Source: a virus | Length of the DNA stretch: 42,953 bases | IMG/VR virus record: IMGVR_UViG_3300005663_000095 | Location: 1-42,953 of that record | Direction: 5' to 3' (one strand) | In this document: piece after piece, positions 4,851 through 41,150 of the stretch | Numbering within the stretch: the first letter of the stretch is position 1 | Layout: each line of letters starts with the position of its first letter | The notes under the pieces: generated by a model | Seen by the model: the letters and a program-made list of their open reading frames with translations, nothing else | Told to the model about the DNA's origin: nothing | The model's database searches: none | Made by a program: the position numbers and the translations under genes

Positions 4851-5041
4851 TTGTTTGCATCGACCAGACAGAGCAATGCTCGTACTGCTTGCGGGACTAT
4901 CCGTATCCGGTTGAGTTGCACCACTCCGATGGGGAATGTGTCGGCGGACCGTGTCTTGATCGTCAGTGTCCGTTATGGCTTGACGACTTTGAGCATTTCC
5001 ACCCTGTCGCTGCGGAGGCACAGGAGGACAATGATGCCTGA
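4847..5041 (+). CDS. Zinc-ribbon microprotein (64 aa)
   Basis: Contains CSYCLRDYPYPVELHHSDGE (CxxC plus HH) followed by CVGGPCLDRQC, a plausible two-site zinc ribbon. ATGA start overlap. The gene end carries GGAGGCACAGGAGGACA, ribosome site of the next gene. Function unknown. Confidence 0.75.
   Translation: MIVCIDQTEQCSYCLRDYPYPVELHHSDGECVGGPCLDRQCPLWLDDFEHFHPVAAEAQEDNDA
5014..5026 (+). repeat. Start-associated repeat GGAGGCACAGGAG, copy 2
   Basis: Identical 13 bases before the tandem ATGs at 5031/5034. Confidence 0.75.
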
Positions 5042-5273
5042 TTCAAGATCGGTTGGCCTTTACGAGAAGTATCGAGTGGATCGTGTTGACGGTCATCCTA
5101 TTGGGAGGTGCATCGTCCTCGAACTAGCAGACCCGAACTCTTGGAACGCGCTATTGGAGTGGGCCGATTCGGTGGCAATCGATGGGTACGAAATCTTGGC
5201 AGAAGATGTGCGGGCCTCTGTGTCGCACGAAATGGGAAAAGGGGCTGCTGAGACAGGAGACACCGATGCCTAA
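5034..5273 (+). CDS. Hypothetical protein (79 aa)
   Basis: Two tandem ATGs at 5031 and 5034. AGGAGG at 5022-5027 is six bases from the second, which is preferred; the longer open frame upstream is a shadow of the previous gene. Reads MPDSRSVGLYEKYRVDRVDG and ends with AAETGDTDA, encoded partly by the second copy of the 25-base repeat. Confidence 0.7.
   Translation: MPDSRSVGLYEKYRVDRVDGHPIGRCIVLELADPNSWNALLEWADSVAIDGYEILAEDVRASVSHEMGKGAAETGDTDA
5242..5266 (+). repeat. 25-base direct repeat at a gene junction, copy 2
   Basis: Exact copy of 4822-4846, again ending one gene and supplying the ribosome site of the next. See the entry at 4822. Confidence 0.8.
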
Positions 5274-21066: not shown

Positions 21067-21510
21067 TCAGTATTTTCCGTCTAACACTGCCGATCTTAAC
21101 CGCCCAGCGTCTTGGAGTACACGCGTTGTCGCCTCACGGGTGGCGTCCTCCAGATGGTCGAACAGTTGGCGGTCGGTCATGTGCGCCACCGCATCAGGAG
21201 CCCGCCTACGTACCCACGCCAGCGCCATCTGCATCTGGCGACGGTCTGAGCGCCACAGATTCCACAGGTGGCCCATCAACGCCTTCTGGGTGTCGCGGGC
21301 ATCGAGCGGTTTGACGTGGGTCTGTTCGACTGCGGTCGAGTCAGGAACCACTTCGAGGGTCGGGTCGAACCGGTCACGCGGCGCCTGCACTTCTCCGTCG
21401 ATGCGGCTCCTGGTCACTCCTGAGATCCCCGGACGAGACGACGCGATGTTGCCTTCATTCTTGGCGCGCCAAGCGGCGAGCTCGCCGGGGGTCATCAGGT
21501 AGCTTCTCAT
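21067..21510 (-). CDS. Hypothetical virion-region protein (147 aa)
   Basis: ATG 21510 overlaps the preceding stop (ATGA); a longer reading frame is a shadow of that gene. MRSYLMTPGELAAWRAKNEG, then helical WNLWRSDRRQMQMALAWVRR and DRQLFDHLEDATREATTRVL. Mostly helical; a head or neck accessory is possible from position. Confidence 0.65.
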   Translation of the reverse strand: MRSYLMTPGELAAWRAKNEGNIASSRPGISGVTRSRIDGEVQAPRDRFDPTLEVVPDSTAVEQTHVKPLDARDTQKALMGHLWNLWRSDRRQMQMALAWVRRRAPDAVAHMTDRQLFDHLEDATREATTRVLQDAGRLRSAVLDGKY

Positions 21511-22331
21511 GCCGTAGCGAAGCTCGCAGTGGTAGTCACACCGGTGTGGACCTTGCCACGGAACGCCACTTCGAGCTGCTGATGCAACAGCGTGCAGTGG
21601 TGGTCGAACTCGGGCTTCTGCATGGCCCAGCAGTCGAGGCGGGGACACGGCTGCGGAGTGACCCGCCGAAAGCCCCTGGCCTCATGCCACCGGATGTACT
21701 CGTCGTGCTTGGAGGGATCGTAGTTGTTGATCCCCGGTTCGCACACGATCTGCTTGAGGTTGCCGGACTTGTCCAGCATCACGATCTTGCGCGGTGAAGG
21801 CCCGGTGCTGGTGGCGTACTCGGTCAGTTGATTGACCGCCTCCTGCAGCAGCCGGTCGCGTTGCTTCTGCGCCCAACCCGGTTCGATCGCTTCCATCTGG
21901 TCGATGGTGAACGGCGCCAGATGGTTCTTGGCGCGGTCCCGGTTGAACGACACCAGCATGTCCTCCACCTGAGTGGGAAGGTCAGTAGCCAGTATTCGTG
22001 CCGCCGTTTCCAGGTCCACCGGGTATTCGACTTCCACCGGCTTGAGCTGCGCCAGTTCCTCGCGCAGCCTTATCAATTCGGCTTCCATCGCGGCCTGAGA
22101 GGCGGCTTCGCCCATGTCGGCGGCGATAGTCGATACCTCAGAGTCGATCTGTTCGGGGGTGATGGAGCCCTTCGGCGCCCAACCTTCCTTGGTGCGGTGG
22201 CTGTTGAGGGTCCCCAACACGAGACCGTATTTGTCGGCGAACGCCTTGTTGGATAGGCCCGAGGCCCCTGCTTCGAACTCCGTCCGTATCTCGAGCCACT
22301 CTTGTGGTGTCTTTACTGTTTTGACTGGCAA
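21507..22331 (-). CDS. HTH protein in the head-tail region (274 aa)
   Basis: TTG start at 22331, chosen for the strong AAGGAGGGAAG ribosome site. Residues 10-50 (PQEWLEIRTEFEAGASGLSN, KAFADKYGLVLGTLNSHRTK) form a homeodomain-like HTH of the type found in small terminase subunits. Then a helical Glu/Ala region (about 70-100), and at the C-terminus a Cys/His group CPRLDCWAMQKPEFDHHCTL. It could be the small terminase displaced from the large one, or a DNA-binding head/neck protein. Confidence 0.55.
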   Translation of the reverse strand: MPVKTVKTPQEWLEIRTEFEAGASGLSNKAFADKYGLVLGTLNSHRTKEGWAPKGSITPEQIDSEVSTIAADMGEAASQAAMEAELIRLREELAQLKPVEVEYPVDLETAARILATDLPTQVEDMLVSFNRDRAKNHLAPFTIDQMEAIEPGWAQKQRDRLLQEAVNQLTEYATSTGPSPRKIVMLDKSGNLKQIVCEPGINNYDPSKHDEYIRWHEARGFRRVTPQPCPRLDCWAMQKPEFDHHCTLLHQQLEVAFRGKVHTGVTTTASFATA

Positions 22332-23907: not shown

Positions 23908-24783
23908 TTAGCGGTCGGTAATGAGGCCTTGGCCCGCTTCGTCCTCGATCACGGCCACGCCATCGAAGGCGGTGACAACAATCTCGGTCGCGCGGAGCGA
24001 GGCATCTCGCTGAATCTCAACCCTCGACTCGTACTTCACCCCTCGCGCGATGGCGCGGGGCGGGTTGACGAGCATGGCGTTGGAATCAGCGCCGGTGTTA
24101 GCCGTGATTACCGAAGTCGAGATGTACCAGAAGACACCGAACACGTCCCTTTGGAACCCGTCGGGCATCAGCCGGAAGTCTCGCATTTCCCCTCTCGCGC
24201 CTACACCAGTCGAAGAGGCCGGGGTGAACGTTGAGCCCACCGAAGCGATGTAATCGAACCACTGTTGGGTGTATCCCAGAGCCCTGATATCACCCATCTG
24301 CCGCCTATTCGCCAGCGCGGCCTCAGCGTCCATCACATTCAATTCAGTGAGGTTCGTCCCGGTATTCGTCGTGGTGTTGGTGAAGCTCGAAGCTACACCA
24401 GAGACGTCTGCCATCTGCTTCTCACGAACCGCCTTGGCGGCTTCGATTGCGAAGTCCTGAATGGCTACGAGCGAGGAGAGGTTGAGCGCATCCGTCGGGA
24501 CGATCATTATGCCCTGTTCCGATGCCGTCACGGTGGCCTTGGTGGACACAACCTGGGTCGGTTGCAGGTCCACACCTTCGGCTACCGCGGCGGACGCTAG
24601 GCGGGGCCACAAGCCGATGTCATGCGACTTCGACGGGACTCCGCGTAGGTCAACCATGCGTGTCAGCAGATTGACGTGGTTCAGGTCATAGAGCGCGCCG
24701 AGGATGTGTTCGTTGGCGATGGCAGCACTCAGCGTGAAGCCATCAGCGAACGTGGTGTATGTGGTTGCGTTAGCTCCCGCCAC
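23908..24783 (-). CDS. Major capsid protein (HK97-fold expected)
   Basis: 291 aa with a GTG start and a very strong AAGGAGG site eight bases upstream, as expected for an abundant protein. Starts MAGANATTYTTFADGFTLSA; contains AVREKQMADVSGVASSFTNT (spine-helix-like), YTQQWFDYIASVGSTFTPAS, DVFGVFWYISTSVITANTGA and MLVNPPRAIARGVKYESRVE, typical P-domain and A-domain patterns of HK97-like capsid proteins. It follows the scaffold gene in operon order. No N-terminal delta domain seems fused, in line with a separate scaffold. Confidence 0.85.
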   Translation of the reverse strand: MAGANATTYTTFADGFTLSAAIANEHILGALYDLNHVNLLTRMVDLRGVPSKSHDIGLWPRLASAAVAEGVDLQPTQVVSTKATVTASEQGIMIVPTDALNLSSLVAIQDFAIEAAKAVREKQMADVSGVASSFTNTTTNTGTNLTELNVMDAEAALANRRQMGDIRALGYTQQWFDYIASVGSTFTPASSTGVGARGEMRDFRLMPDGFQRDVFGVFWYISTSVITANTGADSNAMLVNPPRAIARGVKYESRVEIQRDASLRATEIVVTAFDGVAVIEDEAGQGLITDR

Positions 24784-25797: not shown

Positions 25798-25923
25798 ATG
25801 CAATCTGAGGGTCCGGTGGAAATAACGTTATCGCTAAATACGGTGACTCTGGGTCCACTGGTCGAGGTAACTAATCCTCGGTTCCACATAGTCGGTGCGC
25901 GCCGGTCGTGCGAGCCTCTCTGA
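25798..25923 (+). CDS. Possible mini-ORF ahead of the tRNA (41 aa)
   Basis: ATG 25798 is seven bases after TACGGT, a TANNNT -10 box, so it could be leaderless. Product MQSEGPVEITLSLNTVTLGP then LVEVTNPRFHIVGARRSCEP is beta-like in pattern. The last third overlaps the tRNA gene, which lowers confidence. It may instead be part of an untranslated tRNA precursor. Confidence 0.3.
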   Translation: MQSEGPVEITLSLNTVTLGPLVEVTNPRFHIVGARRSCEPL

Positions 25924-25961
25924 TAAGGAGGTGGTGGAAGGTTCAACTCCTTCACTGACTA
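25890..25961 (+). tRNA. tRNA-Ile (anticodon GAT)
   Basis: All main arms can be folded by eye. Acceptor AGTCGGT (25890-25896) pairs with ACTGACT (25954-25960), one G-U; discriminator A. Anticodon stem CCTCT/GGAGG with loop CTGATAA, anticodon GAT at 25922-25924, identical to the loop of E. coli tRNA-Ile. T arm GAAGG/CCTTC with loop TTCAACT. The D arm is weak (three pairs) and position 8 is G, not T, so it may be degenerate. CCA is not encoded. It lies on the strand opposite the structural genes. Confidence 0.8.
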
Positions 25962-25965
25962 CTAT

Positions 25966-26153: not shown

Positions 26154-27608
26154 CTACAGCCCGCTGGTGGAGAGGATCTGCAAACGTCCCTCACTTGACA
26201 CGAAGCCCGACGAGCCCTGACCGGCCGCTTCGATCTGACGTCTACGAGCGAACTTCGCCAGTTTCGCGTTGACCTTGGCGGAGGCGGTTCCGTCCACACC
26301 GGCACGGATGATGTCTTCCTGGGTGATGCCTTCACGTCCGGCTTCTAACTCCAACCGGAACCGGAAGATATTGGTAGCGACCTGGCTGGCGATCTGACTG
26401 GTCGCGTTCGGGTCCAGCGTCTCGAACGCCTCACCGGTCCCCAACGCGTCAGCCAACGCCGGCGACAGGTTGAGGCCCTGATTGGAAAACGCCTGCGAGC
26501 GGATAGCGTCGTTGATGAGTTCCTGTACTTCGAACGGAGTGCGGTCCGTTTCGCCGTCGAGGATCAGGTCAATCAGATTGTCGTCAGTAACCGTCAAGTC
26601 GGAACCTTGGAACTTCAAGATGTTGTTGATCTGATCTGCCATACCGGGGAGCTGTCTGAGGACGGCTTCGCCCATCAGAACATCCTCGACCTCTTCGGGG
26701 TCCCAGCCTTGGGCCATGACCTCAGAGATGGTGAGGTCCGACACGTCGGCTTCGATGCCACGGAACGCCCGGATCGAATCGCGGATCTGGTCACGGGACT
26801 CGATGTAGAAGGCGAAGGCGTCGAGCCCCGACGCGCCCGGGGTGTGGATGCCTCTGACCGCAGCGAAGTTGGGATGCTGAATTTTGAAGGCGCCGGTCTC
26901 TGCCACCAACCCGAAGGTCCGTCCGGCGGAGAACCCTTCGCGGGCCGACTCCATCAGAATGGTCATAACTTCTTTCGATTTCCGTTGCCACTCCGGTAGG
27001 TCTTCCTTGCCGAAAACCCTCAAGTCGCGGGTGACGGTTTGGGTGTAGGACTCGTCGATGCCGAACCGTTCGTCGATCAACCCAGCGTCTAGACCTTCAC
27101 GGGCACCAAAGTCGGTCTCGGAGATGGTGCTGGTCGCCGGCCAGTCCTGCGGACCCAAATCGTCGAACGCTTCCTGGTCACCGATCTCATGTCGCAGGAT
27201 CACCCCATGAACTAGGAACTCGACGTAGTAGCGGGGACCGCCAGGTTCGTTGACTTTGACCAGGGTGGAGTTTTCAAGGTTGATCGGTATTGTCGAAATG
27301 GCGCTAGGACCACCGCCGCCAGCGGCGGCGGCCGTTCCGCCTCCACCTCCACCACCACCTGTTCCGCCTCCACCACCGGTGGGTCTCTGTGGTGTGAGGA
27401 AAATGCTGGGGGGTTCTTGACCGCTGGTGGTGGGGTCACCTATGAAGTCATCGGTTCCGAACTCAAGGATGGTTGACCGTGGGGAAGGTTCACTGGGGGC
27501 CTCCTCCTGTTCGCGTTCACGGGTGGCAAGAGGCGGCGCCGGAGGTGGCGGCGGAGGTGGCGGATCCTGCTCGTCGAAAGCCCGAAAACGGTCGCCGCGG
27601 TCACTCAT
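26154..27608 (-). CDS. Pro/Gly-rich virion-region protein (484 aa)
   Basis: N-terminus with a polyproline run (eight prolines near residue 17) and Gly-rich tracts near 80-100, i.e. a long disordered arm, then a globular helical body (YYVEFLVHGVILRHEIGDQE; SKEVMTILMESAREGFSAGR; LPGMADQINNILKFQGSDLT). The body's end (VSSEGRLQILSTSGL) is unremarkable. It follows the giant and 404-aa genes by ATGA overlap and precedes the capsid cluster. Candidate internal (ejected) head protein. Confidence 0.65.
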   Translation of the reverse strand: MSDRGDRFRAFDEQDPPPPPPPPAPPLATREREQEEAPSEPSPRSTILEFGTDDFIGDPTTSGQEPPSIFLTPQRPTGGGGGTGGGGGGGGTAAAAGGGGPSAISTIPINLENSTLVKVNEPGGPRYYVEFLVHGVILRHEIGDQEAFDDLGPQDWPATSTISETDFGAREGLDAGLIDERFGIDESYTQTVTRDLRVFGKEDLPEWQRKSKEVMTILMESAREGFSAGRTFGLVAETGAFKIQHPNFAAVRGIHTPGASGLDAFAFYIESRDQIRDSIRAFRGIEADVSDLTISEVMAQGWDPEEVEDVLMGEAVLRQLPGMADQINNILKFQGSDLTVTDDNLIDLILDGETDRTPFEVQELINDAIRSQAFSNQGLNLSPALADALGTGEAFETLDPNATSQIASQVATNIFRFRLELEAGREGITQEDIIRAGVDGTASAKVNAKLAKFARRRQIEAAGQGSSGFVSSEGRLQILSTSGL

Positions 27609-28819
27609 GCGGACTGCAACGGTCCGAGCTGGTTAATCAGTCCAGCGAAGCGTCGGGAGAACGAACCCTGTCCGAGTGCTTGCACATCGCGCGAAAAGGC
27701 CACCGATTCAGCGAACGCTGCGGGCGCAGCACCGGTACTCAAACCCCGTTCGAGCTGTTCGACTTCGAGGCGCCGGTCTAGCCCGTGGGGCACTACGCCC
27801 TGGCGGAACGAGTTCATGTATTCGATTTCTGACTGTGATAAGTCTTTGCGCCCATACAGGAACCGGTAACGGGAGGTGGACCGCATCTTGTTCAGGGTCC
27901 ATACTTCGAATGAGGGGGTGGCGTTGCCTGCCCGCAGGGAATTGTTGGCCGTGTTTTCGTATTCGTTGATGAGTCCTGGGACGTTGCCGGGTTCTTCCAG
28001 CATCAGCGTCCGCCATGAGTTGCGGAGGTTCTCGGCGGCGGCAGTCTTGTCGAAGGAGATCGTTCGGGGTCCGCCACCGCCTCGAGGCTTGTTCCGGTCG
28101 GCGGCTTTGGCGATGAAGTCCTGCAACGACGCGGTAGTGGTTTGCGGCAGGTTCTCCAACTGTGAGGCATGGAAGTCTTTGTTTAGTAATCCACGGCCTA
28201 CCAGGGCGCGGAACTTGTCTTCGTCGCCGGGGATGTTGGGGTCGTCCTCGTCGTCGAAGAACCTTCCGACCGCGACGCTCATAGGTACCGGGAACACCGA
28301 CAGTTTGGGGTCATTGATGTAAGTAGTTGGGCCCTGGCCGTCGTCGATGACGAACTGCTGGGGTAGCAAATCAAGGTCGAAGGTGCGTTGCTGCGCCCGG
28401 GTCCACAGTTCGGTGGAGTCGAGCGCTTCGGCGAAGGTGGGGAACTCACGGTTGACGGCGAAGAAGGATTCGCCGAAGTCTTTGAGGACCCGGGTGAAGT
28501 CAACCTCGTTGAGAGGGAGGTCTGTTAAACGGACGTCTAGTTGGTCGGCCCATTCTTCGCGGAGTCGGTCGCGTATCCCGTAGAAGACGGTTGGGTTGAT
28601 CGTCGGCCAAGTCGGGGTCGGTTCTTGGAACGGCTTACGGCCGCCTCCGCCCAGGTTGAAAAGTAACTGCAAAAGGGCAGGGTCGCTAAGGTCGATTGTT
28701 GGTTCGTCGGGAGCATCGCTTTGATGAGCAGCAATCCACACGGCGACCCGTACCGCGTGTTCATCTACCGTCTCACCTTCAAAGGGTGGCTCTCCCTGAA
28801 TAGGACGTTCATCAGCCAT
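27605..28819 (-). CDS. Virion-region protein (404 aa)
   Basis: Helical and acidic: DEHAVRVAVWIAAHQSDAPD, then NPTVFYGIRDRLREEWADQL and RNSWRTLMLEEPGNVPGLIN, ending SFSRRFAGLINQLGPLQSA. The start overlaps the giant gene by eight bases (ATGGCTGA) and its stop overlaps the 484-aa start (ATGA), so the three are made together. Probably a partner of the giant protein in the virion interior. Confidence 0.65.
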   Translation of the reverse strand: MADERPIQGEPPFEGETVDEHAVRVAVWIAAHQSDAPDEPTIDLSDPALLQLLFNLGGGGRKPFQEPTPTWPTINPTVFYGIRDRLREEWADQLDVRLTDLPLNEVDFTRVLKDFGESFFAVNREFPTFAEALDSTELWTRAQQRTFDLDLLPQQFVIDDGQGPTTYINDPKLSVFPVPMSVAVGRFFDDEDDPNIPGDEDKFRALVGRGLLNKDFHASQLENLPQTTTASLQDFIAKAADRNKPRGGGGPRTISFDKTAAAENLRNSWRTLMLEEPGNVPGLINEYENTANNSLRAGNATPSFEVWTLNKMRSTSRYRFLYGRKDLSQSEIEYMNSFRQGVVPHGLDRRLEVEQLERGLSTGAAPAAFAESVAFSRDVQALGQGSFSRRFAGLINQLGPLQSA

Positions 28820-31800
28820 CAGTCACCCCTGTGGGGATACCGCTGCCGCCAACACCGGCGCCTGAAGGATTTCGTTCAGAGAATACAGAAGGGTCGAATT
28901 GTTGCACACCGTCAATATACAGCCACATTATCCAACGGGTGTTACCTTCGATTTTCTGATCGACCGGCAACTGAATACCGTCAATTTCGCGGACCATCAC
29001 CAGATCAATTGTCTCCGCAGTTTTGATAGCGGCCCGAAGGTTCTCGTCCTGTAACAGAAAGTTCGGTTTTACCGGTGAAGTGCCGCGGCTGCCGTCGGCC
29101 TGCCACTGTGTCAGCGCCGTCTCATATTCCCTCTGAGCGACCCGGTTCTTTTCCTCAGCGTTTATGCCCATCAGCCGTACCCGTTGCACCGCCTCAGGTT
29201 CCAACTGTTCGGGGTTGACGTCGGCGTTGGCGAACGACACCAGTTGGTCGGGTCGGAAGAACTCCACCGCCAAAGTGTCACCATCCACAATTTCGACGAA
29301 CGCCGGGTCCACCGTGATCCGCAACGTGTTGTCAGTGGCACCCTGCGGAACTTCGCTCAAGTTGAGTGGCTGGATAGCTTCCCAGAACGGGTCGCCCCAG
29401 TCATCCTGTAATAGTTGGCGGTACTGGGTAATGGACATGTCTTTGCTGATGAGAAGCGGCAGGATTATTTCGTTACGGAACATACGGCGATACACCTCCG
29501 GCAGCGACCTAGGATCTGTGAAGTCTTCCTCCGCTACGGACACCACTTTACGCAGAACATCCAACCGGATTTTGGCCTCGGTGGTCATCAGGTCGGTTAC
29601 TGCCTGACCGACGGCCGGGGCGCTGAACGTATTGGAATCGATGTCGAGCTGGTCGAGCAACTGACCTAACTCAAACCGGTTGTACTCCAGGGTGGGATCA
29701 ATACCGAACATCGGTAGCACCTCAGCTCCTAGAACACCTATCGGAGCAGCAAGGGCGTTAGTGGAGTTGAAAATGGTCGGTCGGCTCCACGAGATGCCGT
29801 CCTCATCCTTGAGTGTTTTGGTGGATTCGCGCCATACCTGTTCACGTAGATGTCGTGCGGCTTTGGACAGGCGGACCAGCATCCCCTCGGCCAGTCCACT
29901 CAGGTCGCCGTGGTCGAACGGGTCGCGGCGTATCAACCAGCCGTTGTCTTTGCCTTGCTGACGTTGCTCGGGGTTGCCGCGGGTGACATAGCGGTCGCCG
30001 TCACATGCTCCCTGCGGGGCCAGGTGCGCTTCGCATTTCCACTGCGACACCATGTTACCCACCATCTCAGGGTGACGCATCAACAGCACCGCCTGTTCGG
30101 TATCGGTCAACTCTTCGAACAGGATGTCCGATAGGCGGTCACCTAACAGGTCGGCTTGTTCGAAGTTGATCGACCCGTCCAAGTATTTGGCGTAGTTGGC
30201 GGTGATGGTGTCGAAGGCTTCTGAGCCGATGCGGCCCTGCTGATGCAACAGGTCGATGGCACCCGACTTGATCCACTCCTCATACAACTGCACATACTGG
30301 CCGTCATCGGCGTCATACAGGAACCCGCCTCCGACCAGGTTCAGACCGAGTTTCTTCATTTCGCCGGCGGTGGCGTTCTGATAGGTTTGGAAGGTGATTC
30401 CTTCTACCCAGTCGCGCCATTCGGGGTCGTTGGGGTCGATCACTCGGAACATGTTTTCGGCGATGGCGGTGGCGAGGTCTACTCGGATGGCGGTGTTGAA
30501 TCCGGCGGGGTTCCCGAAGAAGGTGTTGACTCCTTTTGCGATGTCGCCCAGCACCGACCCCGGGGCCGCGCTCGCGGCGGTGTTGGCGCCGTACTGCAAA
30601 GTGGTCCCTAGTCCGTGGGTGGCGCTTCGTTGCGATTCGGTAGCAGTGAAATCAACGAACCCTTTCATAAATCCCATCGGGTCTTCCCACGGCAACGGGA
30701 CCTGCTGATCGGAGAACGCAAACGACGGATTGAGATACTCGATAATGTCACGCGCCGCCACGAACGGTCCTTCGCCTTCGTCGGGCATCATGTGCAAGAA
30801 CGTGTTGAAGATCGGCGACGCCGAGACGGAGAACTGCATCGCCCAATCCTCGAACTCGGTGCTGGAAGGCAGGAAGGTGGCGGTGTCGAGGACCTTGTGG
30901 AAGATGTCTGTGTACCCGGCGTCTCGAGGATCCTCGCTGTCGAACGTCACATGGAGCCCGCCGTAGAGGTCCATCGCCCGGGTCGTCAACCGCAGATTGA
31001 GCGGGATGGCAGTTTCGAACACCTTTCCTTCCAACGCTCTGAGGCCGGGGATTTTGGCGGCGAGCGGATTCAGACCGAGGGCGGTGCCGTTGGTCAACTC
31101 TCGGCCGTAGAAGCCCATGAAGTCCAACTGCGCTTTCAAAAAGACTGCGAGTTGCTGGCCGCGTTTACCTGCCAGCGAAGTGGCGCCCATCATATAGGCC
31201 ATGTGATCGGCATGAGCTTTGGCGACCCTCGAGGCGGAGACTCCGATCATGCGGTCGGTGCGGTAGCCGCCGCGACGTACGATGTTGTCGATGATCGGTG
31301 ACGACTGGTTGAGCATCCGGTTCGCTTCGAGGATCTGGGCGTCGGTCACAGTGTCAGATTTGGCGAGGATCCGAGCCACCTGGTCGCCGTCGAGATATCT
31401 CCCCCGGTTCTGGTGGCGGGCCTTGAGCGCGGAGAATGTCTGTTCGTAATAGGAACTAAAAATCAGTCCGCCGTGAATGTCGGCGGGGCGTCCGTACATG
31501 ATGTCGAACGCGGCGTTGAACACCCCTTTGGACTGGCCGCGGGTGGCAGGCATGAACGTAAACCGGCGTAGTACCGCGTCGGGTATTTCTTTGCCTTCGG
31601 CCCATGCGGTTTGAATCAGGGTGCGGGTCTCGACGCGGAGTGCCGGATCGGCGATTTGTGACAGGATTACGTTGAGGGATTCGTCGGCGGCTTCCATCGT
31701 TTCGAGCCAGGTCATCTCCCCGGCCTTGGTGGAGTTCAGCGGCGACGTTTTAGGTCCGACCAGTAGCCGGCCGTTCTCGTTGAACCACCAGTCCTCGAAA

Positions 31801-34800
31801 ATCAGGTCGTCTCCGGCGGCGCGGGCCTCAGCCCATTTCTTCCACAGGGGACGGTTTCGTAGGACGCCGTTGAGGAACTGGTTGGCGGCTTCGATGAACT
31901 CCGATTGTGAGTACAGCATGTCGGAGTTCTGATTTGCGATCGCTTTGGAACGGGTCACCAGCCCGCTCACCGCCTGGTCTTTGCCTTGGATGACGGTTCC
32001 CATCCGAGACGAAAAGAAAGCGGACATGTCGGGAACCTCACGTCCGCCGACCAATCTGCGTACACCGGGCAGGTTACGCAACGTGGTTCCGAGTCGTGCT
32101 TGTCCGCGTGATAGGGCGCCGGGGACACGGCCCTCGGTCCCCTCTTTTAGAACTTTGGCGGATACACCGGTTCCGGGGACGTCGGTGGGACGTCCGAAGA
32201 AACCGTTCTTTACGAAGTCACGGAAAATCTCGTCCAGGTTGGAACGGAACCATGTGACCGGGTTCGACAGGACGTTGTACGCCAGAAAACGGTTGGTGCC
32301 GTCCACCAGCGACGCGATCTTATGCTGGGCGATCGGTCCTGCTTTGCGGGCGGGGTCGATGTAGAGGAACTTCTTGTACCAGTCGGTCGGCCCCCAGTTC
32401 TTGGGGCGGTTGGCGTAGGCAATCAGCATCTGCGGTGACACCGGCAAATTGACCGAAGTCTGGTCCTGCACGGTGGTTAGGCGGTTCCACTGAGCGAACG
32501 CTTCGGTGTCGATTATCCGGTCACCGTTGGCGTCTAGCAGCGGCAGCCCGGTCTCGGGGTCGATCTTGGTAGACATCTCGCGGCCTAACGAGATGCGACG
32601 TGCTTCGTCGGGACGGGGTCCGGTGACCTGTTCCCAATCCAACTGGTGGCGAGGTTCCAGCACCCCATCGGCGTTTTTGCGCCACGGCAGATCATCAACA
32701 ACGATAGGTAGGCCGTCGTCACCCAGCTTGAAACCGATACCTGGAATCCGTTCGCCCCAGTCCTGCATGGTGCCGAGGATGAACAGTCGCAAACGTTCGT
32801 TCGACTGCGGCTGACCTAAGCGAGCTGCGATGCCGACCAGATCGGAAACCTCGTTGGCGTTCTCCTTGCGGCGCGCCACCCAATCAGCGGACGCTTCGGC
32901 CAGGTCATCGAACTGCTGGGTGCCGGGGGGGCCGTGGCGGTAACGGGGGCCGAGCGCCGCCAGTTCAGACTGGACTCCGGGCGCTGACGGTCCCGACACA
33001 GACAACAGGGCTTCGTCTGTTAAGGCCACCGTTTCTGATAATTGTGGGGTGACATTGTCGATCAGTCGAATAGCATCGAATCCTGCATCTTTGGCTAGTT
33101 GTGCGCCGTAGATGCTCAACAGATCAAGAGTGTCAGTGAAGTCGTCTGGTCCGACTACGACACCAAATCGCTGTTTAATGAGTTGTGTCAGTTCGTCGGG
33201 CAACATCTCAGCAAGGCGCGCCAACTCATCTGGGCCTTCGATAGAAGCTATCGCCGAGACGCCTGCGTCGGTGTTGCCCGTACCCATTCCACCGAATCTC
33301 GGGTGGTCTGGCAGTAAGGCTTCTTCAACATCAAGGACATTGGCGTCGTCTGCGAGTCTGTGGGTTGACTGCACGGTCTTGCCCTTAACGGCGTGCGGAC
33401 TGGGGGTATCTATGTCGCTCAGATATACACCCCGAGGCGTCTCGGAGGGGAGTCGAGTCCTACCGGGTATGTCGTGACGCTGCAGGGTGGCCCGCTCACC
33501 AGCAGAGGCGGCGTCGGCTTGACGGGCTTCGACCAGCAGACGGTCGCCGTCACGTAACAGTTCCAACTCGCGAGCATCGGCGGTCCGTTGCACGTCCAGC
33601 GGGTCACCGGCACGCGCCAGATCGCGGGCGGCGTCGTCATAAGCCCGTTTCGTCTCAGGAGTCGGATTGCGTATCCAGTCGGCGCGGTTCGCTTCGAAGA
33701 TCCCCTGAACCTCGTCCGATGCCACCGGTTTGGCCTGACGAGCCTCCAACTCTGCGACGCGAGCATCGACGTAGCGGTACTCGTCTGCTTGTCGTGCCAC
33801 GAAGTCGCGGTAGCCGTGCTCGGTGGATTCCGAAGCGAGTTCACGTCTGACTCCTCGCGCGGCCTGTAGTTGTAGGGCGTTGTTCGACAGGGCATAGGAG
33901 TTGTCGAACATGACCATCTCGTTGAGGAACAGCTTGGCCTGGGTACGCCACACTTCGGGGGTGGTGACCCCATCGACGCTCATCGCTGTCAGCAGATCTA
34001 TGCCGTCGGTCATAAAGCGGTCCGGTGACAGCGACCACGTTTTGTTCGATGACAGTTGACCCAGCAGCCGTTTGAGTCCTTGACGTGCTTCGGCATCACC
34101 CAGTTTGGACATGTTGGCGATCCACATCGAGGTATTGCGGAGTTTGAGGGTGCCGGTCATGGCGGGGATCATGTCGCCTGACACCATTTCACGCAGGATG
34201 ATTTCTCCTACCACGTCGTCGGAGGTGGCGAACAGCAGTTCGGTCATGCCTTTGGGGCTGATCCCGGTGTGGCCCAGCAGTCCCATCAGCGCCGGGGCGT
34301 TCCCGAAGAACTCGTGTGACTCGGCGAGGAACCCGCCGGCATACGAGTTGACCTGCGGCATCCATAGCCGTTGCGCTCTGGCCGAGTTCAGCCATCGGGT
34401 GGCGCCTTTCTCGGTGGACATCAGGTGTTTCATCCATGAGGCCCGCGCCGGGCCTGAGGCGAATATCCAGGTGCCGAGGTCGCCGACTATTGATCCGTAG
34501 ACGTTGAACGCCCCTTTCCATTCGTCGGGGACATCGGCGTATTCGCCGAAGGTCAGGTGTTCTCCTCGACCGCCGACCCACTCCGGGTAAGCCGCGGCAG
34601 CGTTGAACTCGAACACCGAGACGAACGCCTTGGCCATCTCCGCGATGTTGAAATCTGAGTCGGAGGCAGCCGCCAACACTGCGGCGGGGGCTTGGCTGAG
34701 GTCACCCAGGAAGTCGTGCATGGCGATGGCGTTGCCCTGAGCGAACTCTTCCCACCCTTCAATCACAGTCATCGCCGCTGGCATGATGCGGTCTTCGGTG

Positions 34801-36341
34801 AACTTCTGCAATGAGGTGCGTTCGTCATAGAAGTTCGCCACATCATCACCGAAAGCTTCGTGCGAGTCTTGTAGGTGGTTGATGAGACGGTCACGGGTTT
34901 CAGGGTCCTCTACCGCGTCGAGCGCGCCGCGGGCCGCAGCCAGCAGGTCGGGTTGCTCCAACGACATTATCCCCATTGCTAGGACAATCATGTCGGCGTC
35001 AGACGCGGCGAACTGGGCGTTCCATTCCGACTGACGTGAAACCGCCTCGTCGTGTTTCTCTTGTGTGGAGTTGACCCAGGCCCGCGATCCGACTTCTGAT
35101 ACCAGCCAGTTGACCGGGGCGTTGGCTTCGTCCCACAGCCGACCGGCGGGGTGGAACAGTCCGGCGCCGAAGAACTCGGCGGCGCCTCCCAGGAGGTTCT
35201 GCTGACCGGGCAGACCCGGGTCGGAGACCAGTTGGTGTTTGGTGCCGTACAGCGCTTCGATGAAGGCGGCGATGACATGCTTGGGGTCGTCTTTGATCGG
35301 TCCGTCGAGCCGGATATCGAACGTGTACCCGCCTTCCCTTTCGAATGTGCCGTCTACTTCGAAGGTGCCGAGCATCCGGTCACCGGACTTTATGTAGGTG
35401 AACGGTCGGCCCACCATGTTGTTGAAGATGCGTCCCACCTCATAGACGTCTTCGGGGTCCCGTCCGCCGAATGCGGCTATGAACTCTTCATCGTCACGTC
35501 CCAGAGTGTTATTGGGATCTAACGCTTCGAGTGTTTTCGCCGCGTCGGATATCGGTAGGTCGGTGATGCTGACGTTCTGGCGGAGCATTGCTTCCTGTTC
35601 GAAGATCAGTCCGAACTCACCGGCGAACAATTTCGCGTCTATCTCGGAGATGTCGAGTCCTTCCATCAGTTCATCGAGGTTGACCCCCTGATTGGCGATC
35701 ATCTCAGTGGACCGCATGTACCATTCGAAGTCTTCGATCTGGTCTGAGGACGCTTCTAACATTCTGTTGACAGCGAGGTTGGCGAAGGGGAGTTCCCCGA
35801 GGGTCTGTGTCATTACGGCAGCGACGAGGCTCTTTCCCGTGAGTTCCTCAAGGGCAGGTGTTTCGTCAATCCATTGTCCCATCAGGATCGCCTGCGCCGA
35901 GAACCGTTCCCAAATCCCCGCGGCGGACAGTTCCAATCCGCTGGCAGGGTGACGAGTCATATAGTCCTGGTAGAAAACCAACGCATACGTCTGTTCACGG
36001 GCCGACAGTCCGGCGCGTGGTGATGCTGCTACTTTCGCGGCGCGGTCGCCGGGGACCCGCGCTGAGGTACGAGCGGTTCCGGTCAGCAACGCCGGGTCGT
36101 GGGTTTCGAAAAGCCGGGTGGCTACTTGATCTGCCAACGTGTCTGCGGCCCGTCCGGTTGCGAGCGCGGCGCGTCCGGCTGCCAGCAGCAGCGGTTTAGG
36201 AGCGGCGAGGAAATCGAGCACTTGATCGCCGAGTCCTGGTTCCTCTGGTTCTTCCTCGTCAGGATGCCGTTCGTTGGGTCCGGCCGCGGTCGGCTTGGCG
36301 ATCCTGGCGCTGATCCTTGCCAGTTCTTCGCGGGCGGTCAT
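28812..36341 (-). CDS. Giant virion-associated protein with SNase-like C-terminus (2509 aa)
   Basis: A 7.5-kb ORF between portal and capsid genes. Long helical N-terminal two thirds. A segment around 955-1115 (TPRGVYLSDIDTP with Tyr973, then a Gly-rich FGGMGTGNTD and GFDAIRLIDN at about 1087-1096) has the layout of ADP-ribosyltransferase-like polyvalent domains, a tentative call. Another characteristic stretch is NVLSNPVTWFRSNLDEIFRD. The last 160 residues form a staphylococcal-nuclease-like domain: DGDT at 2353-2356, VRLMGINAEE with Arg2389 and Glu2397, and TRWIMWLYIDG with Arg2469, aligning with SNase Arg35, Glu43 and Arg87; the Asp40 equivalent is Asn2394. Such size and gene order fit a protein ejected with the DNA, or a multidomain polyvalent protein. 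Overlaps its neighbours by 4 and 8 bases. Confidence 0.8.
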   Translation of the reverse strand: MTAREELARISARIAKPTAAGPNERHPDEEEPEEPGLGDQVLDFLAAPKPLLLAAGRAALATGRAADTLADQVATRLFETHDPALLTGTARTSARVPGDRAAKVAASPRAGLSAREQTYALVFYQDYMTRHPASGLELSAAGIWERFSAQAILMGQWIDETPALEELTGKSLVAAVMTQTLGELPFANLAVNRMLEASSDQIEDFEWYMRSTEMIANQGVNLDELMEGLDISEIDAKLFAGEFGLIFEQEAMLRQNVSITDLPISDAAKTLEALDPNNTLGRDDEEFIAAFGGRDPEDVYEVGRIFNNMVGRPFTYIKSGDRMLGTFEVDGTFEREGGYTFDIRLDGPIKDDPKHVIAAFIEALYGTKHQLVSDPGLPGQQNLLGGAAEFFGAGLFHPAGRLWDEANAPVNWLVSEVGSRAWVNSTQEKHDEAVSRQSEWNAQFAASDADMIVLAMGIMSLEQPDLLAAARGALDAVEDPETRDRLINHLQDSHEAFGDDVANFYDERTSLQKFTEDRIMPAAMTVIEGWEEFAQGNAIAMHDFLGDLSQAPAAVLAAASDSDFNIAEMAKAFVSVFEFNAAAAYPEWVGGRGEHLTFGEYADVPDEWKGAFNVYGSIVGDLGTWIFASGPARASWMKHLMSTEKGATRWLNSARAQRLWMPQVNSYAGGFLAESHEFFGNAPALMGLLGHTGISPKGMTELLFATSDDVVGEIILREMVSGDMIPAMTGTLKLRNTSMWIANMSKLGDAEARQGLKRLLGQLSSNKTWSLSPDRFMTDGIDLLTAMSVDGVTTPEVWRTQAKLFLNEMVMFDNSYALSNNALQLQAARGVRRELASESTEHGYRDFVARQADEYRYVDARVAELEARQAKPVASDEVQGIFEANRADWIRNPTPETKRAYDDAARDLARAGDPLDVQRTADARELELLRDGDRLLVEARQADAASAGERATLQRHDIPGRTRLPSETPRGVYLSDIDTPSPHAVKGKTVQSTHRLADDANVLDVEEALLPDHPRFGGMGTGNTDAGVSAIASIEGPDELARLAEMLPDELTQLIKQRFGVVVGPDDFTDTLDLLSIYGAQLAKDAGFDAIRLIDNVTPQLSETVALTDEALLSVSGPSAPGVQSELAALGPRYRHGPPGTQQFDDLAEASADWVARRKENANEVSDLVGIAARLGQPQSNERLRLFILGTMQDWGERIPGIGFKLGDDGLPIVVDDLPWRKNADGVLEPRHQLDWEQVTGPRPDEARRISLGREMSTKIDPETGLPLLDANGDRIIDTEAFAQWNRLTTVQDQTSVNLPVSPQMLIAYANRPKNWGPTDWYKKFLYIDPARKAGPIAQHKIASLVDGTNRFLAYNVLSNPVTWFRSNLDEIFRDFVKNGFFGRPTDVPGTGVSAKVLKEGTEGRVPGALSRGQARLGTTLRNLPGVRRLVGGREVPDMSAFFSSRMGTVIQGKDQAVSGLVTRSKAIANQNSDMLYSQSEFIEAANQFLNGVLRNRPLWKKWAEARAAGDDLIFEDWWFNENGRLLVGPKTSPLNSTKAGEMTWLETMEAADESLNVILSQIADPALRVETRTLIQTAWAEGKEIPDAVLRRFTFMPATRGQSKGVFNAAFDIMYGRPADIHGGLIFSSYYEQTFSALKARHQNRGRYLDGDQVARILAKSDTVTDAQILEANRMLNQSSPIIDNIVRRGGYRTDRMIGVSASRVAKAHADHMAYMMGATSLAGKRGQQLAVFLKAQLDFMGFYGRELTNGTALGLNPLAAKIPGLRALEGKVFETAIPLNLRLTTRAMDLYGGLHVTFDSEDPRDAGYTDIFHKVLDTATFLPSSTEFEDWAMQFSVSASPIFNTFLHMMPDEGEGPFVAARDIIEYLNPSFAFSDQQVPLPWEDPMGFMKGFVDFTATESQRSATHGLGTTLQYGANTAASAAPGSVLGDIAKGVNTFFGNPAGFNTAIRVDLATAIAENMFRVIDPNDPEWRDWVEGITFQTYQNATAGEMKKLGLNLVGGGFLYDADDGQYVQLYEEWIKSGAIDLLHQQGRIGSEAFDTITANYAKYLDGSINFEQADLLGDRLSDILFEELTDTEQAVLLMRHPEMVGNMVSQWKCEAHLAPQGACDGDRYVTRGNPEQRQQGKDNGWLIRRDPFDHGDLSGLAEGMLVRLSKAARHLREQVWRESTKTLKDEDGISWSRPTIFNSTNALAAPIGVLGAEVLPMFGIDPTLEYNRFELGQLLDQLDIDSNTFSAPAVGQAVTDLMTTEAKIRLDVLRKVVSVAEEDFTDPRSLPEVYRRMFRNEIILPLLISKDMSITQYRQLLQDDWGDPFWEAIQPLNLSEVPQGATDNTLRITVDPAFVEIVDGDTLAVEFFRPDQLVSFANADVNPEQLEPEAVQRVRLMGINAEEKNRVAQREYETALTQWQADGSRGTSPVKPNFLLQDENLRAAIKTAETIDLVMVREIDGIQLPVDQKIEGNTRWIMWLYIDGVQQFDPSVFSERNPSGAGVGGSGIPTGVTDG

Positions 36342-36625: not shown

Positions 36626-36792
36626 GGTCTAAACCTCAACCAAGCCCACAGACGGCGATACCAGGAAACCCCGAGTGGAACCAATATGTAGTCGCCCTCG
36701 TCGGGTGTGACGCCAGCCTCCGATGACGACAGTCCATCTATCTTTGGCCAACCGTACTCGTCGCGTTCTACATGGACCGTGAAGATGTTCAT
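36622..36792 (-). CDS. Microprotein after the portal gene (56 aa)
   Basis: MNIFTVHVERDEYGWPKIDG then LSSSEAGVTPDEGDYILVPL and GVSWYRRLWAWLRFRP. Beta-like first half and a basic Trp/Arg-rich end. ATG overlaps the portal stop and the stop overlaps the next ATG. Both ATGA overlaps argue for a real gene. No family recognised. Confidence 0.7.
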   Translation of the reverse strand: MNIFTVHVERDEYGWPKIDGLSSSEAGVTPDEGDYILVPLGVSWYRRLWAWLRFRP

Positions 36793-38519
36793 TGCACCAG
36801 ACTCAGTAGTTCGGGGGTGACCTGCGGCGGCGGGGCCTCAGCCGACTGGGCGGCTTGCTCCTCCGTGCCTTTGAGGATCTTCTGCATCGCGGTGCGGGTG
36901 GTTTCTTTGTCACCGTCGAGCATCTCCACATATTCCAACAGTTGCGCAGTGGAACCCTGGGCGACCATTGCGGGGAGGACGCCGTCTTCGAACAGACGGA
37001 CCGCTTTGTCCAACGACATTTCGCGTTCGGCCGCGATGGCGTTGGGGACCATGCCGGAGCGTTGCATCGCCATCCGTTTCGGCAACCATTCCAACCGATG
37101 CGCCGCACCCAGGTTCAGTAAGTTGGTGTGGGAATCTACTCCGAGGGCGGGGTAGGAGACCAGGACGCGGTAGTCGCCTTTCCAGAACTCCGCGGGGGTG
37201 TAATCGTCGGTGTAGGCCTCACCGGCGTCGAAGCCGTCGATCTTGCGTTCCACCGGCCTCAGCTTATTGACGGGATCTTCATACGACCACTGCTCATCCA
37301 ATGATGCCAGACGTCCGAAGGCATCGGTGTAGAAGCGGGCCATGTCGGTCTGCGCCCAGGACTGCTGGGCGTTGTATCCGCCCTGCAGGAGCTGGACTGC
37401 TTCACCGGAGGCGATCGAAGCGCCAGGTTCGCCGCCGCGTTGCTGCGGGAAGTGACCGGCGTTGCGTGCCGCTCGGAGCTGTTCGTCGATGTGGGTGAAG
37501 GCAGCGAAGTCGGTCGGCGGTCTCGGGTAATCAATGACTGCCTTTTCAGGGCCGCGCACACCGCGCATCACCACGTCGGGGCCGAACTTCTGCCAGTTCT
37601 CGATGTTCTGCACCACCGGGGGAGCGTGCATCGACCGTCGCAGGTTGAGCATCAATTCGATCTGCAAACCGTGAGCGATCTTGAGCGGCGGCAGCATCGC
37701 GTCCAGCTTGCCTCTGATCTCACCGTCAGCCGACACCGCTTTGGACACCAGGATCGGACAGCCGTTCATCCTGTGCTCCGAAGGCGGTTTGAGCCATGCC
37801 ACCGCCACGTTGGTCTGGCCGATCTCGGACGGCCGGATGTAGTCGGCGTCACCAGACGTGACCAGCTCTTCGTGCGCCAGGGCGATCGACCAATGAGTTT
37901 CGTTGGCCCACCAGATCACCTCGTACTGCGGTTCGATTCTGCCCTTCATCGTCGTCGCCACTTGCTGCAGTCCCGGGTTACCGGCACCGAACTCACGCAC
38001 GATGTCGGCGAAGCGCTGCTTACGGATCAAAAGACCTTCGGCCAGTTGACCTTTGGAGTTCCACGACACCGGAAACACATGACGCGGAGCAAGGCGTTCC
38101 AGGTACGGCATCCCTTGGGGGTCGTCCCAGTCCTTCCATGCCATCGCGGCGGGCATCCCGTACACGAACCAGTCCAGATAGAACCCGACATGATGCGCGT
38201 CGAGGCGGGAGTTCTGGGCGAGGGTGGTGAAGACTCTCGAGGCCTGTTCGCCGGAGCGTTCGGCGCGGTCCAACCGTGTTCCTCGTCGGGGGGGTACGTC
38301 GAAGATGGGCAGAATGGAGGCGGCGGTGGCGGATTTGTCTTCGGCAGCTTCGAGGTAGACGTTTTCGACTGCGGGTTCTGATTGGGTGACGGAGAGGTCG
38401 GGCCACACCTTGTTCCATTCGCCACGCAGTATCCGGTCGGAGCGGGTCATGCGCCATTTGGAGTTGCGGTTGATGTCGAGAGCTACCCGACGGGTCTCAC
38501 GCAGTTCACCGAGGTTCAC
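36789..38519 (-). CDS. Portal protein
   Basis: 576 aa with GTG start overlapping the upstream stop. It follows the terminase and has portal-type features: helical N-terminus (MNLGELRETRRVALDINRNS), SATAASILPIFDVPPRRGTR, LDWFVYGMPAAMAWKDWDDP, the stem-region-like DAMLPPLKIAHGLQIELMLN and SGEAVQLLQGGYNAQQSWAQ, and a helical C-terminus (EQAAQSAEAPPPQ). Forms the dodecameric ring at one capsid vertex through which DNA is packaged and ejected. Confidence 0.85.
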   Translation of the reverse strand: MNLGELRETRRVALDINRNSKWRMTRSDRILRGEWNKVWPDLSVTQSEPAVENVYLEAAEDKSATAASILPIFDVPPRRGTRLDRAERSGEQASRVFTTLAQNSRLDAHHVGFYLDWFVYGMPAAMAWKDWDDPQGMPYLERLAPRHVFPVSWNSKGQLAEGLLIRKQRFADIVREFGAGNPGLQQVATTMKGRIEPQYEVIWWANETHWSIALAHEELVTSGDADYIRPSEIGQTNVAVAWLKPPSEHRMNGCPILVSKAVSADGEIRGKLDAMLPPLKIAHGLQIELMLNLRRSMHAPPVVQNIENWQKFGPDVVMRGVRGPEKAVIDYPRPPTDFAAFTHIDEQLRAARNAGHFPQQRGGEPGASIASGEAVQLLQGGYNAQQSWAQTDMARFYTDAFGRLASLDEQWSYEDPVNKLRPVERKIDGFDAGEAYTDDYTPAEFWKGDYRVLVSYPALGVDSHTNLLNLGAAHRLEWLPKRMAMQRSGMVPNAIAAEREMSLDKAVRLFEDGVLPAMVAQGSTAQLLEYVEMLDGDKETTRTAMQKILKGTEEQAAQSAEAPPPQVTPELLSLVQ

Positions 38520-38728: not shown

Positions 38729-38901
38729 AAGTGGCGTTCCCTCAGCACCTTCGCGATGTTCTTGGCCCAGATATGGGTTGCCAACCGATCTGTCTCGTCT
38801 ATGTAGGACCTAGGGTCGTCCTCGGGTTCATTGCCGAGCAGGTAGGAAGCGACCAGTCTCCCATCTCGTCGCCCGACCTCAAACATATTCCCAAGACTCA
38901 T
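38725..38901 (-). CDS. Hypothetical protein after terminase (58 aa)
   Basis: ATG 38901 overlaps the terminase stop (ATGA); a longer reading frame upstream is a shadow of the terminase C-terminus. MSLGNMFEVGRRDGRLVASY then LLGNEPEDDPRSYIDETDRL and THIWAKNIAKVLRERHL, mostly helical and charged. Unknown role. Confidence 0.7.
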   Translation of the reverse strand: MSLGNMFEVGRRDGRLVASYLLGNEPEDDPRSYIDETDRLATHIWAKNIAKVLRERHL

Positions 38902-40868
38902 AGTTTGTACGCTCCGAAGGCGTCGTTGACTGCCGGTGCCTGACGAACAGTACTCCGTTCCCGATGAGACTTCCGATCTTGAATCAGTTGACTGCCGTGC
39001 GCCCATCCCATCCAGAACGCCAAACAGGCATCGTCGGGGACACGGCCTGACCCGACGGTTTTGCGGCGTTCGGTGTAACCGACTGCTTCGAAGTTCTGGA
39101 AGTGGTCCTTGACATCGGCCACCTTGAGCTTATCGGCAGTGGTTTTGGCGGGGAAACGGATCTTGCCGACCCGCATATCGTCGAGCATCGCCATCACCTG
39201 ATACTCACCTTGGCCCCGGTTGTATTGGGTACGCCACGGTTCGATATTGACATGATATTTGCGGGTGATCTCCAGCACCTCGGGATGCTCAAGGGTTTCG
39301 CCTTCGAAGTTGATCTCCCACACCAAATCTCTGGGCCGATACAACTGGATGGGTTCTCGGATCAGTTTGAGTCGCATCCCGGAGAACCCCAGGTCGTCAC
39401 CGATGAAGTGATCGATCAGGGTACAGACCTCAGTGGTCTCGTTGAAACCCAGCAACGTCCAAGCGGCGCCGCCCTTTCTTGCCGGGTCCACCGAAAGGAT
39501 CAGCAGCTCATTCGGCTCGCTTACTCCGAGGGTGCGGCCGGGGTCGTCGCAGGCGTCCAGGATCTCGGTGGTGAAGTCCCCGTACCCCGACGCTTTGGGG
39601 TTCTGCTGATACAGCAGTTCGAACAGGTCGGGGTTCTTTTTCTGCCGCTCCTCGAGTCCCCTCACCCGTCTGGCCCCGCGGGCCGATAGCGAAGCGTGCT
39701 GGTCGTCGGTCAGGTCGTCGGCGATGTGGACCTCGTCGCCGATCAGTAGTTGGCCCCGAACTGGGAACTTCTCCGGCCAATAAGACACCACGATCCCTTC
39801 GTCTGAGACCCACAGCGCCGGGGTGATGATGGTGGCGACCCCGTTGGCGTACTTGGTGTAATCCCCGCTGCGGTACACCACCCGGGCGGTCCCGATGTGG
39901 TTGTCCATCAACTTGACCAGATTGGATTGCCCTCGGCGTCGGACGTGGTGGTTGATGAAGATCATCCGTCCTCCCTCATCGAGACGCGAATCGATGGTGC
40001 CGTCGATCAGGTTGTACTGCTCGGCACGGAAGGTGGCCGAACGCTGGTTCTCCACCGTGAACAGGTCCGATCCCACCAGTCGCTTGACCCTGGATCCGGC
40101 GATGGCGGCTTCCAGGCCGAGGGCCCACAGGTTGGGGTCGGCCTGGGGGGTGTTGCGGGCGACGAACCACTTGTTGTGGGCGTCCCATTTGACCGTGGCC
40201 GGACGTGACCCGTCGGGCAGACGTAGTTTCCCGTCGAACTTGAACGGTCCGTATTCTTCGATGAAGTTGACCACCGGCATGGTGCCGCCGGGGATGTCGG
40301 GGATACGGGTGAACAGTCCGGGGTCGGTGAAATACGGGTCCAGGTAGGCGTCGATGCGTTTCTTGGCCTGGTCTTTGGACTCCATGATGCAGCCCATCAC
40401 TTCTACCCCGTCGGCTGCGTCTTTGGCTAGGGCCTGCATGGTGGTGACGTCCTTGCCGGCGCCGGCCGGGGCGTTCCAGAAGATCGTCAGGTTGGATTGG
40501 TCGTCGTATGCCTCGGCGAAGGCGGTCTGGGTGGGGGTGGAGGGATGGCCGAATACGTCTCGGCGCCACTCGACCAGAGTTCCGGTGGGACGCATCTCGC
40601 GCCACGGGTCAAAGGTGATCGTTTTGTTGTCGATCCCTTTGTGTCGTAGGAACTTGGCGTGGGCTTCCTTGTATCCTTTCTCGAACTTGGGGTCGTTTCG
40701 CCAATTTTGTAGGGTGGAGCGCGACATTCCCATCAATTCGATGACCTGACGCTGCGAGTCGGCGGTGGTGTAGTGGCGCAGGAACTCCATTTGGCGGTCC
40801 TGTTGGGCGATCTTGGTGGCCGAAACCGGTGTGATCCCGATGTCGGAGACGTGGGTGAGGTCTGTCAC
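38898..40868 (-). CDS. terL: Terminase large subunit with N-terminal HTH
   Basis: 656 aa from the GTG at 40868; a longer frame from ATG 40961 runs over the divergent 83-aa gene. Residues about 36-60 (ADSQRQVIELMGMSRSTLQN, WRND) form a HTH. The Walker A-like loop APAGAGKD ends at Lys139-Asp140 (Asp in place of the usual Ser/Thr). VKRLVGSDL is a probable Walker B, with MIFINHHVRR following as the coupling motif. The nuclease half has LSVDPARKGGAAWT (Asp461), VWEINFEGE (Glu518) and PDDACLAFW (Asp612/613). It cuts and pumps the concatemer into the capsid at the portal. No separate small subunit lies beside it. Confidence 0.9.
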   Translation of the reverse strand: MTDLTHVSDIGITPVSATKIAQQDRQMEFLRHYTTADSQRQVIELMGMSRSTLQNWRNDPKFEKGYKEAHAKFLRHKGIDNKTITFDPWREMRPTGTLVEWRRDVFGHPSTPTQTAFAEAYDDQSNLTIFWNAPAGAGKDVTTMQALAKDAADGVEVMGCIMESKDQAKKRIDAYLDPYFTDPGLFTRIPDIPGGTMPVVNFIEEYGPFKFDGKLRLPDGSRPATVKWDAHNKWFVARNTPQADPNLWALGLEAAIAGSRVKRLVGSDLFTVENQRSATFRAEQYNLIDGTIDSRLDEGGRMIFINHHVRRRGQSNLVKLMDNHIGTARVVYRSGDYTKYANGVATIITPALWVSDEGIVVSYWPEKFPVRGQLLIGDEVHIADDLTDDQHASLSARGARRVRGLEERQKKNPDLFELLYQQNPKASGYGDFTTEILDACDDPGRTLGVSEPNELLILSVDPARKGGAAWTLLGFNETTEVCTLIDHFIGDDLGFSGMRLKLIREPIQLYRPRDLVWEINFEGETLEHPEVLEITRKYHVNIEPWRTQYNRGQGEYQVMAMLDDMRVGKIRFPAKTTADKLKVADVKDHFQNFEAVGYTERRKTVGSGRVPDDACLAFWMGWAHGSQLIQDRKSHRERSTVRQAPAVNDAFGAYKL

Positions 40869-40898
40869 AGCGCCAGAGTACCCTGCTACCCTTGCCAA
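40869..40898. promoter_or_regulatory. Back-to-back leaderless promoter pair
   Basis: Plus strand: TACCCT (40887-40892), six bases, ATG 40899. Minus strand: TACTCT (40880-40875), six bases, GTG 40868. Both are TANNNT -10 boxes at the spacing used by leaderless genes in actinobacteria. Neither gene has a ribosome site and there is no obvious -35. The two boxes are only six bases apart, so the transcripts may compete. Confidence 0.6.
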
Positions 40899-41150
40899 AT
40901 GGGTGTCTGCCCTTATCATGGTCTTCCGGTATGTCGGGAATGTTCCCAAGCGTTGGCCCACACCCAGCCGCCCACCAAAGCGCAGATGGATGAGCTGCTG
41001 CGCCTGGTCAACAAGTCACACCGCCCGATGCCGAAGATCCGCTCGAGGTTCGAAGCCGACAGGGCGATTCGGGCTCATAAGCATGTGGGCCGTTTACAGG
41101 CGTGGTCGGAGCGTGACGTTTTCAACTACAACCCGAGGCACAGCGAATGA
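40899..41150 (+). CDS. 83-aa zinc-finger-like protein, left partner of Fic
   Basis: MGVCPYHGLPVCRECSQALA then PTKAQMDELLRLVNKSHRPM and ERDVFNYNPRHSE. Starts with a CxxHGLPxCxxC zinc site. Paralogous over its full length to the gene at 41595 (CxxHGLP-C--C, E-LRL-N--H-P, RD---Y-NPRH), and both are exactly 83 aa. Starts at a leaderless-type promoter; its stop overlaps the Fic gene (ATGA). Confidence 0.8.
   Translation: MGVCPYHGLPVCRECSQALAHTQPPTKAQMDELLRLVNKSHRPMPKIRSRFEADRAIRAHKHVGRLQAWSERDVFNYNPRHSE

Follow-up and report, generated by a model that had tools for sequence, protein, structure and literature searches.

A divergent staphylococcal nuclease-like domain at the C-terminus of a giant portal-side phage protein

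The 2509-aa giant protein encoded next to the portal gene of the phage IMGVR_UViG_3300005663_000095 ends in what is, by profile comparison, almost certainly a divergent domain of the staphylococcal nuclease (SNase) family, spanning residues 2341-2480. The window analysed here is the whole IMG/VR record of 42,953 nucleotides, which belongs to a phage with large terminase (TerL), portal, giant, major capsid protein (MCP) and M23/peptidoglycan-binding lysin genes. The giant gene is a single open frame on the minus strand (28812 to 36341), and its SNase-like part, placed by HMM, hhalign and phrog_452 at residues about 2341-2480, lies at 28902 to 29321 on the same strand. Giant portal-side proteins of podophages have no known function, and the domain offers a concrete test of their purpose across a large, mostly uncultured portal family.

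The three motifs on which the original prediction relied were all located in the translation (minus strand throughout): DGDT at residues 2353-2356 (29274 to 29285), with the equivalents of Asp19, Asp21 and Thr22; VRLMGINAEE at 2388-2397 (29151 to 29180), with those of Arg35, Asp40 (changed to Asn) and Glu43; and TRWIMWLYIDG at 2468-2478 (28908 to 28940), in which R2469 corresponds to Arg87 on strand 5. The residues it had numbered, R2389, N2394, E2397 and R2469, are all correct, and the R-x4-N-x2-E and R...DG spacings are the same as in SNase, as had been claimed. Alignment and profile both make R2389, E2397 and R2469 the equivalents of Arg35, Glu43 and Arg87, to which we add D2355, absent from that list, as the equivalent of the Ca ligand Asp21. 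The Asp40 equivalent had been taken as the only one changed; Asn2394 does stand there, but Thr41 is replaced by Ala, Pro42 by Glu, and the Lys84/Tyr85 pair is changed too. The Asp40 site is occupied by Asn in 14 of the 54 bacterial SNases, in 13 of 14 proteins from a scan allowing Asp or Asn (near-duplicates and the second phage described below included), and in 98 phage SNases with an upstream DGDT from a scan that itself required Asn. As judged from these sequences, Asn2394 is no peculiar defect of this phage but a residue common in phage SNases, and since it is also found in some bacterial SNases, Asn alone is no argument for lost activity. DGDT and [VIL][RK]LxG[IV][DN]xxE occurred together in none of 20000 shuffles of the giant.

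The Pfam SNase model (PF00565) gave no match to the domain, even at E 10, the domain staying below the gathering score, and Pfam, NCBIfam and PDB sequence searches with it returned nothing relevant. Since curated models miss the domain, we assembled a reference set of 76 SNases, gathered independently of the window from the R100 plasmid thermonuclease, relatives in species genomes, and PF00565 matches in about 100 genomes. The best place in the giant for an HMM of this set was residues 2349-2400. Comparison of the domain with the 76 bacterial SNases by hhalign gave a score of 37.2 (P 4.7e-6, probability 86%), which none of 300 shuffles reached, the best of them scoring 25.3. Along the giant, the sole other high-scoring window overlapped the SNase domain, and among the giants of related phages none of 85 C-termini came near the domain's score. 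The isolated domain had a single match in PHROG, to phrog_452 (endonuclease), at E 0.01. Weak matches of the domain to jumbo phages in tblastn, with E above 1, were disregarded.

Viral contigs were scanned for V[RK]LxGINAxE, which recovered mainly phage SNases of the small, free-standing type; the single giant among the finds belongs to a second phage, L311. The gene order of L311 (portal, 132 aa, 2272-aa giant, 289 aa, 476 aa, 200 aa, MCP) is that of the window, at identities of 25% for the portal and 35% for the MCP. Its giant ends with DGDT, a 32-aa stretch, VRLLGINAAE and then FYGRELAWLFIG (in outline DGDT...VRLLGINAAE...YGRELAWLFIG), and the domain matches phrog_452 at E 1.4e-5. A profile of the two phage domains aligned to the independently gathered bacterial SNases at P 6.8e-9 (hhalign) and put R2469 on Arg87. 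The equivalents of Asp21, Arg35, Glu43 and Arg87 are kept in both phages. By far the best-conserved stretch of the two giants is their SNase part (29% over 128 positions); the remaining approximately 2000 residues match weakly, which argues for selection on the domain. Because a very distant phage has an equivalent arrangement, we consider the SNase tail real and likely to benefit the phage; profile comparison and the second phage thus both back the homology claimed for the giant's C-terminus. A profile search with the MCP led back to the L311 contig (recovered as L340) and otherwise gave just an unrelated siphovirus, and viral contigs contained no close relative of either the giant or TerL. 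A second motif scan yielded a phage protein of an unrelated kind, 1289 aa long (L351, 1827 to 5693, plus strand), with a canonical SNase in mid-protein at residues 987-1095 (Pfam E 7e-22) and an exonuclease-like N-terminus (VILDIETT), and unlike any annotated phage protein outside its SNase part.

In an alignment with phage SNases, a long insertion separates strands 2 and 3 in both the window and L311 domains, and both end shortly after strand 5, leaving no sequence counterpart of the C-terminal SNase helices 2 and 3 in either. The window domain has two insertions, one lying between DGDT and VRL (about 31 aa) and the other following Glu2397 (about 35 aa). The best reading of these sequences is a minimal SNase, with the predicted OB barrel and the Asp21/Arg35/Glu43/Arg87 set but without the terminal helices. 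Instability is common in shortened SNases, and a stable fold of the domain would therefore need the insertions to complete it. A single-sequence AlphaFold model was poor (pLDDT 47), and Foldseek with that model gave no SNase among the matches listed, which included hotdog folds at E above 0.3. A second model, built from an alignment of 37 phage SNase rows including L311, had a mean pLDDT of 58.6 (70-85 in the core) and the order strand-strand-strand-helix-strand-strand. With SNases in its input alignment, SNases filled all of its best 50 Foldseek places (prob up to 0.99, E 0.017) and VIA-align gave a Z of about 7 over ~98 residues; since SNases were inside that alignment, we use this weak three-dimensional model as a compatibility check and not as independent proof.

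The giant gene lies in an operon-like run of head genes, all on the minus strand. TerL (687 aa, 38898 to 40961) carries at its N-terminus, residues ~41-107, a small-terminase-like HTH (phrog_4044, HTH_Tnp_1_2), and may thus be a fusion of small and large terminase; a 274-aa protein of the late region (21507 to 22331, minus strand) weakly matches phrog_51 (E 2e-4), a family of small terminases. The portal protein (576 aa, 36789 to 38519), identified by tblastn to Beephvirinae portals and with relatives in viral contigs, is encoded upstream of the giant in the same direction. Downstream, the stop of the giant gene and the start of the next gene, encoding a 404-aa protein (27605 to 28819), overlap by 8 nt, and these are followed by genes for a 484-aa protein (26154 to 27608), homologous at E 3e-12 to the 476-aa protein at the equivalent place in L311, and the MCP (291 aa, 23908 to 24783). 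A tRNA-Ile(gat) at 25890 to 25962 (plus strand, opposite to the late genes) occupies the site where Beephvirinae carry an array of ~20 tRNAs. The head genes are a mosaic, the MCP matching Pelagibacter and lake phages with tape measure genes (HTVC112P, DSL-LC06) and the portal matching Streptomyces podophages. Elsewhere, a protein at 4851 to 5273 (plus strand) resembles the sulfatase-modifying factor (formylglycine-generating) family (phrog_9572), and no integrase or lysogeny gene was found among the ORFs scanned in the window, a record that may be a fragment. Within the giant, residues ~960-1110 (GVYLSD...GFDAIRL) show a by-eye likeness to ADP-ribosyltransferase motifs, as do residues ~680-780 (FHGT...) of the L311 giant; Pfam gave no match for the stretch in the window giant.

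The portal family of the window, to which the Streptomyces Beephvirinae belong, is large: one scan gave 58 loci and a different one over 560. A portal profile gave no match in species genomes. The Beephvirinae have a giant of ~1640 aa at the equivalent place, and their particles are podoviral (Abafar, PMC11536984). There is no detectable sequence homology between the window giant and the Beephvirinae giants, so a role in the virion rests on synteny. The original prediction called the giant a virion protein that is probably ejected, and what speaks for this is gene order (TerL, portal, giant, ..., MCP), common to the window and the podoviral Beephvirinae. By that order the giant is likely a virion protein beside the portal, and by analogy with the internal proteins of podophages it probably leaves the head with the DNA. 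The SNase motif pair occurred in none of 9343 ORFs of portal-bearing loci, and the ~85 giants from the wider portal family lack the domain; it is thus an addition specific to this lineage, placed at the end of a giant from the virion operon.

As to function, we tentatively favor an active SNase-type nuclease delivered at entry as the most likely reading. On entry, the giant would bring the putative nuclease domain into the host cell, and there the domain would cut host or competing nucleic acid, and inside the particle it would be held off the phage genome by the lack of free metal ion or by its position. Going by the SNase family, the putative activity would be that of a metal-dependent, non-specific phosphodiesterase. 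That the giant of a podophage virion delivers such a nuclease with the DNA as a new entry weapon, destroying host DNA or RNA or the nucleic acid of rival phages before phage gene expression, is a more doubtful proposal; if the domain is both active and delivered, SNase would join the enzymes carried into cells in phage particles. Against the delivered-nuclease reading stand the risk of packing a non-specific nuclease with the phage's own DNA and the missing Pfam match, helices 2 and 3 and Lys84/Tyr85 pair.

The same losses, with divergence below Pfam detection and no Lys/Tyr before Arg87, would suit an OB module with lost or reduced catalysis that binds nucleic acid and holds the DNA near the portal or leads it out, and binding without cutting would be of advantage to a virion protein that touches the genome. 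This reading ranks next after the delivered nuclease and is possible but rather unlikely, as pure binding would have no need for Glu43 and both Arg residues, whereas the four catalytic equivalents, Asp21 among them, persist in the window and L311 despite extreme divergence elsewhere. Adjacency to the portal gene in both phages would also suit a nuclease with an assembly role, one that trims or cuts DNA at the portal while packaging proceeds or once it is over. However, terminases themselves cut packaged DNA, and the many wider-family giants that lack the domain indicate that packaging in this portal family does not need it, so that we regard an assembly role as improbable.

Slightly less probable still is translation from an internal start, Met2287, which would yield the SNase part also, or only, as a small protein of its own. 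The ATG there has GGAGG upstream and lies 66 codons before DGDT, a Shine-Dalgarno-like stretch precedes only 7 internal start codons of the giant, and most phage SNases are small free-standing proteins; but chance can produce a single such site, and none is present in residues 2000-2160 of the L311 giant. The poor single-sequence model and the matches it drew would fit motifs that resemble SNase by chance in an unrelated fold, a reading we consider very improbable, being strongly disfavored by the shuffle controls, the conservation in two phages, phrog_452 and the profile scores.

In comparison with known systems, the domain shares with the SNase family (PF00565; staphylococcal nuclease, R100 plasmid thermonuclease and the small phage SNases of phrog_452) DGDT, RLxGI[DN]xxE and the strand 5 Arg in like order and spacing, and the same predicted order of strands and helix; it differs in being below Pfam detection, in its two insertions, in lacking the terminal helices, and in being attached at the end of a ~2300-aa phage protein. 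The phage nuclease GBSV1-NSN was rejected as an analogue, its authors reporting no homology to known nucleases. In the Streptomyces podophages WRightOn and Stella, Beephvirinae gp10 is a giant downstream of the portal and upstream of tRNAs and the MCP, as in the window, but is shorter, is without an SNase domain and has no detectable sequence similarity. The window and L311 giants had no tblastn match among annotated phages, and in that collection the original statement that no described phage has this arrangement holds; portal-adjacent proteins with C-terminal nucleases are nevertheless known as the MuF toxins (PMC5576092). The window giant resembles the polyvalent proteins (PMC5512222), phage proteins of very large size and several domains that are presumed to be packaged and to enter with the DNA; Pfam detected none of the polyvalent domains listed in PMC5512222 in the giant, and no mention of SNase was found with that paper. 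MuF polymorphic toxins, which belong to temperate phages, are head proteins encoded beside the portal and often have a C-terminal nuclease, over half of the putative toxins carrying one (PMC5576092), and that paper does not name SNase in its text. No segment of the window giant matched the MuF domain in Pfam. A small immunity ORF downstream is a further mark of MuF toxins; the next gene in the window encodes 404 aa. By gene order and domain search, MuF toxins and the window giant are alike in lying beside the portal and ending in a toxin-type domain, and as an analogy the MuF nuclease fusions, together with the polyvalent proteins, are the closest in logic to the arrangement described here.
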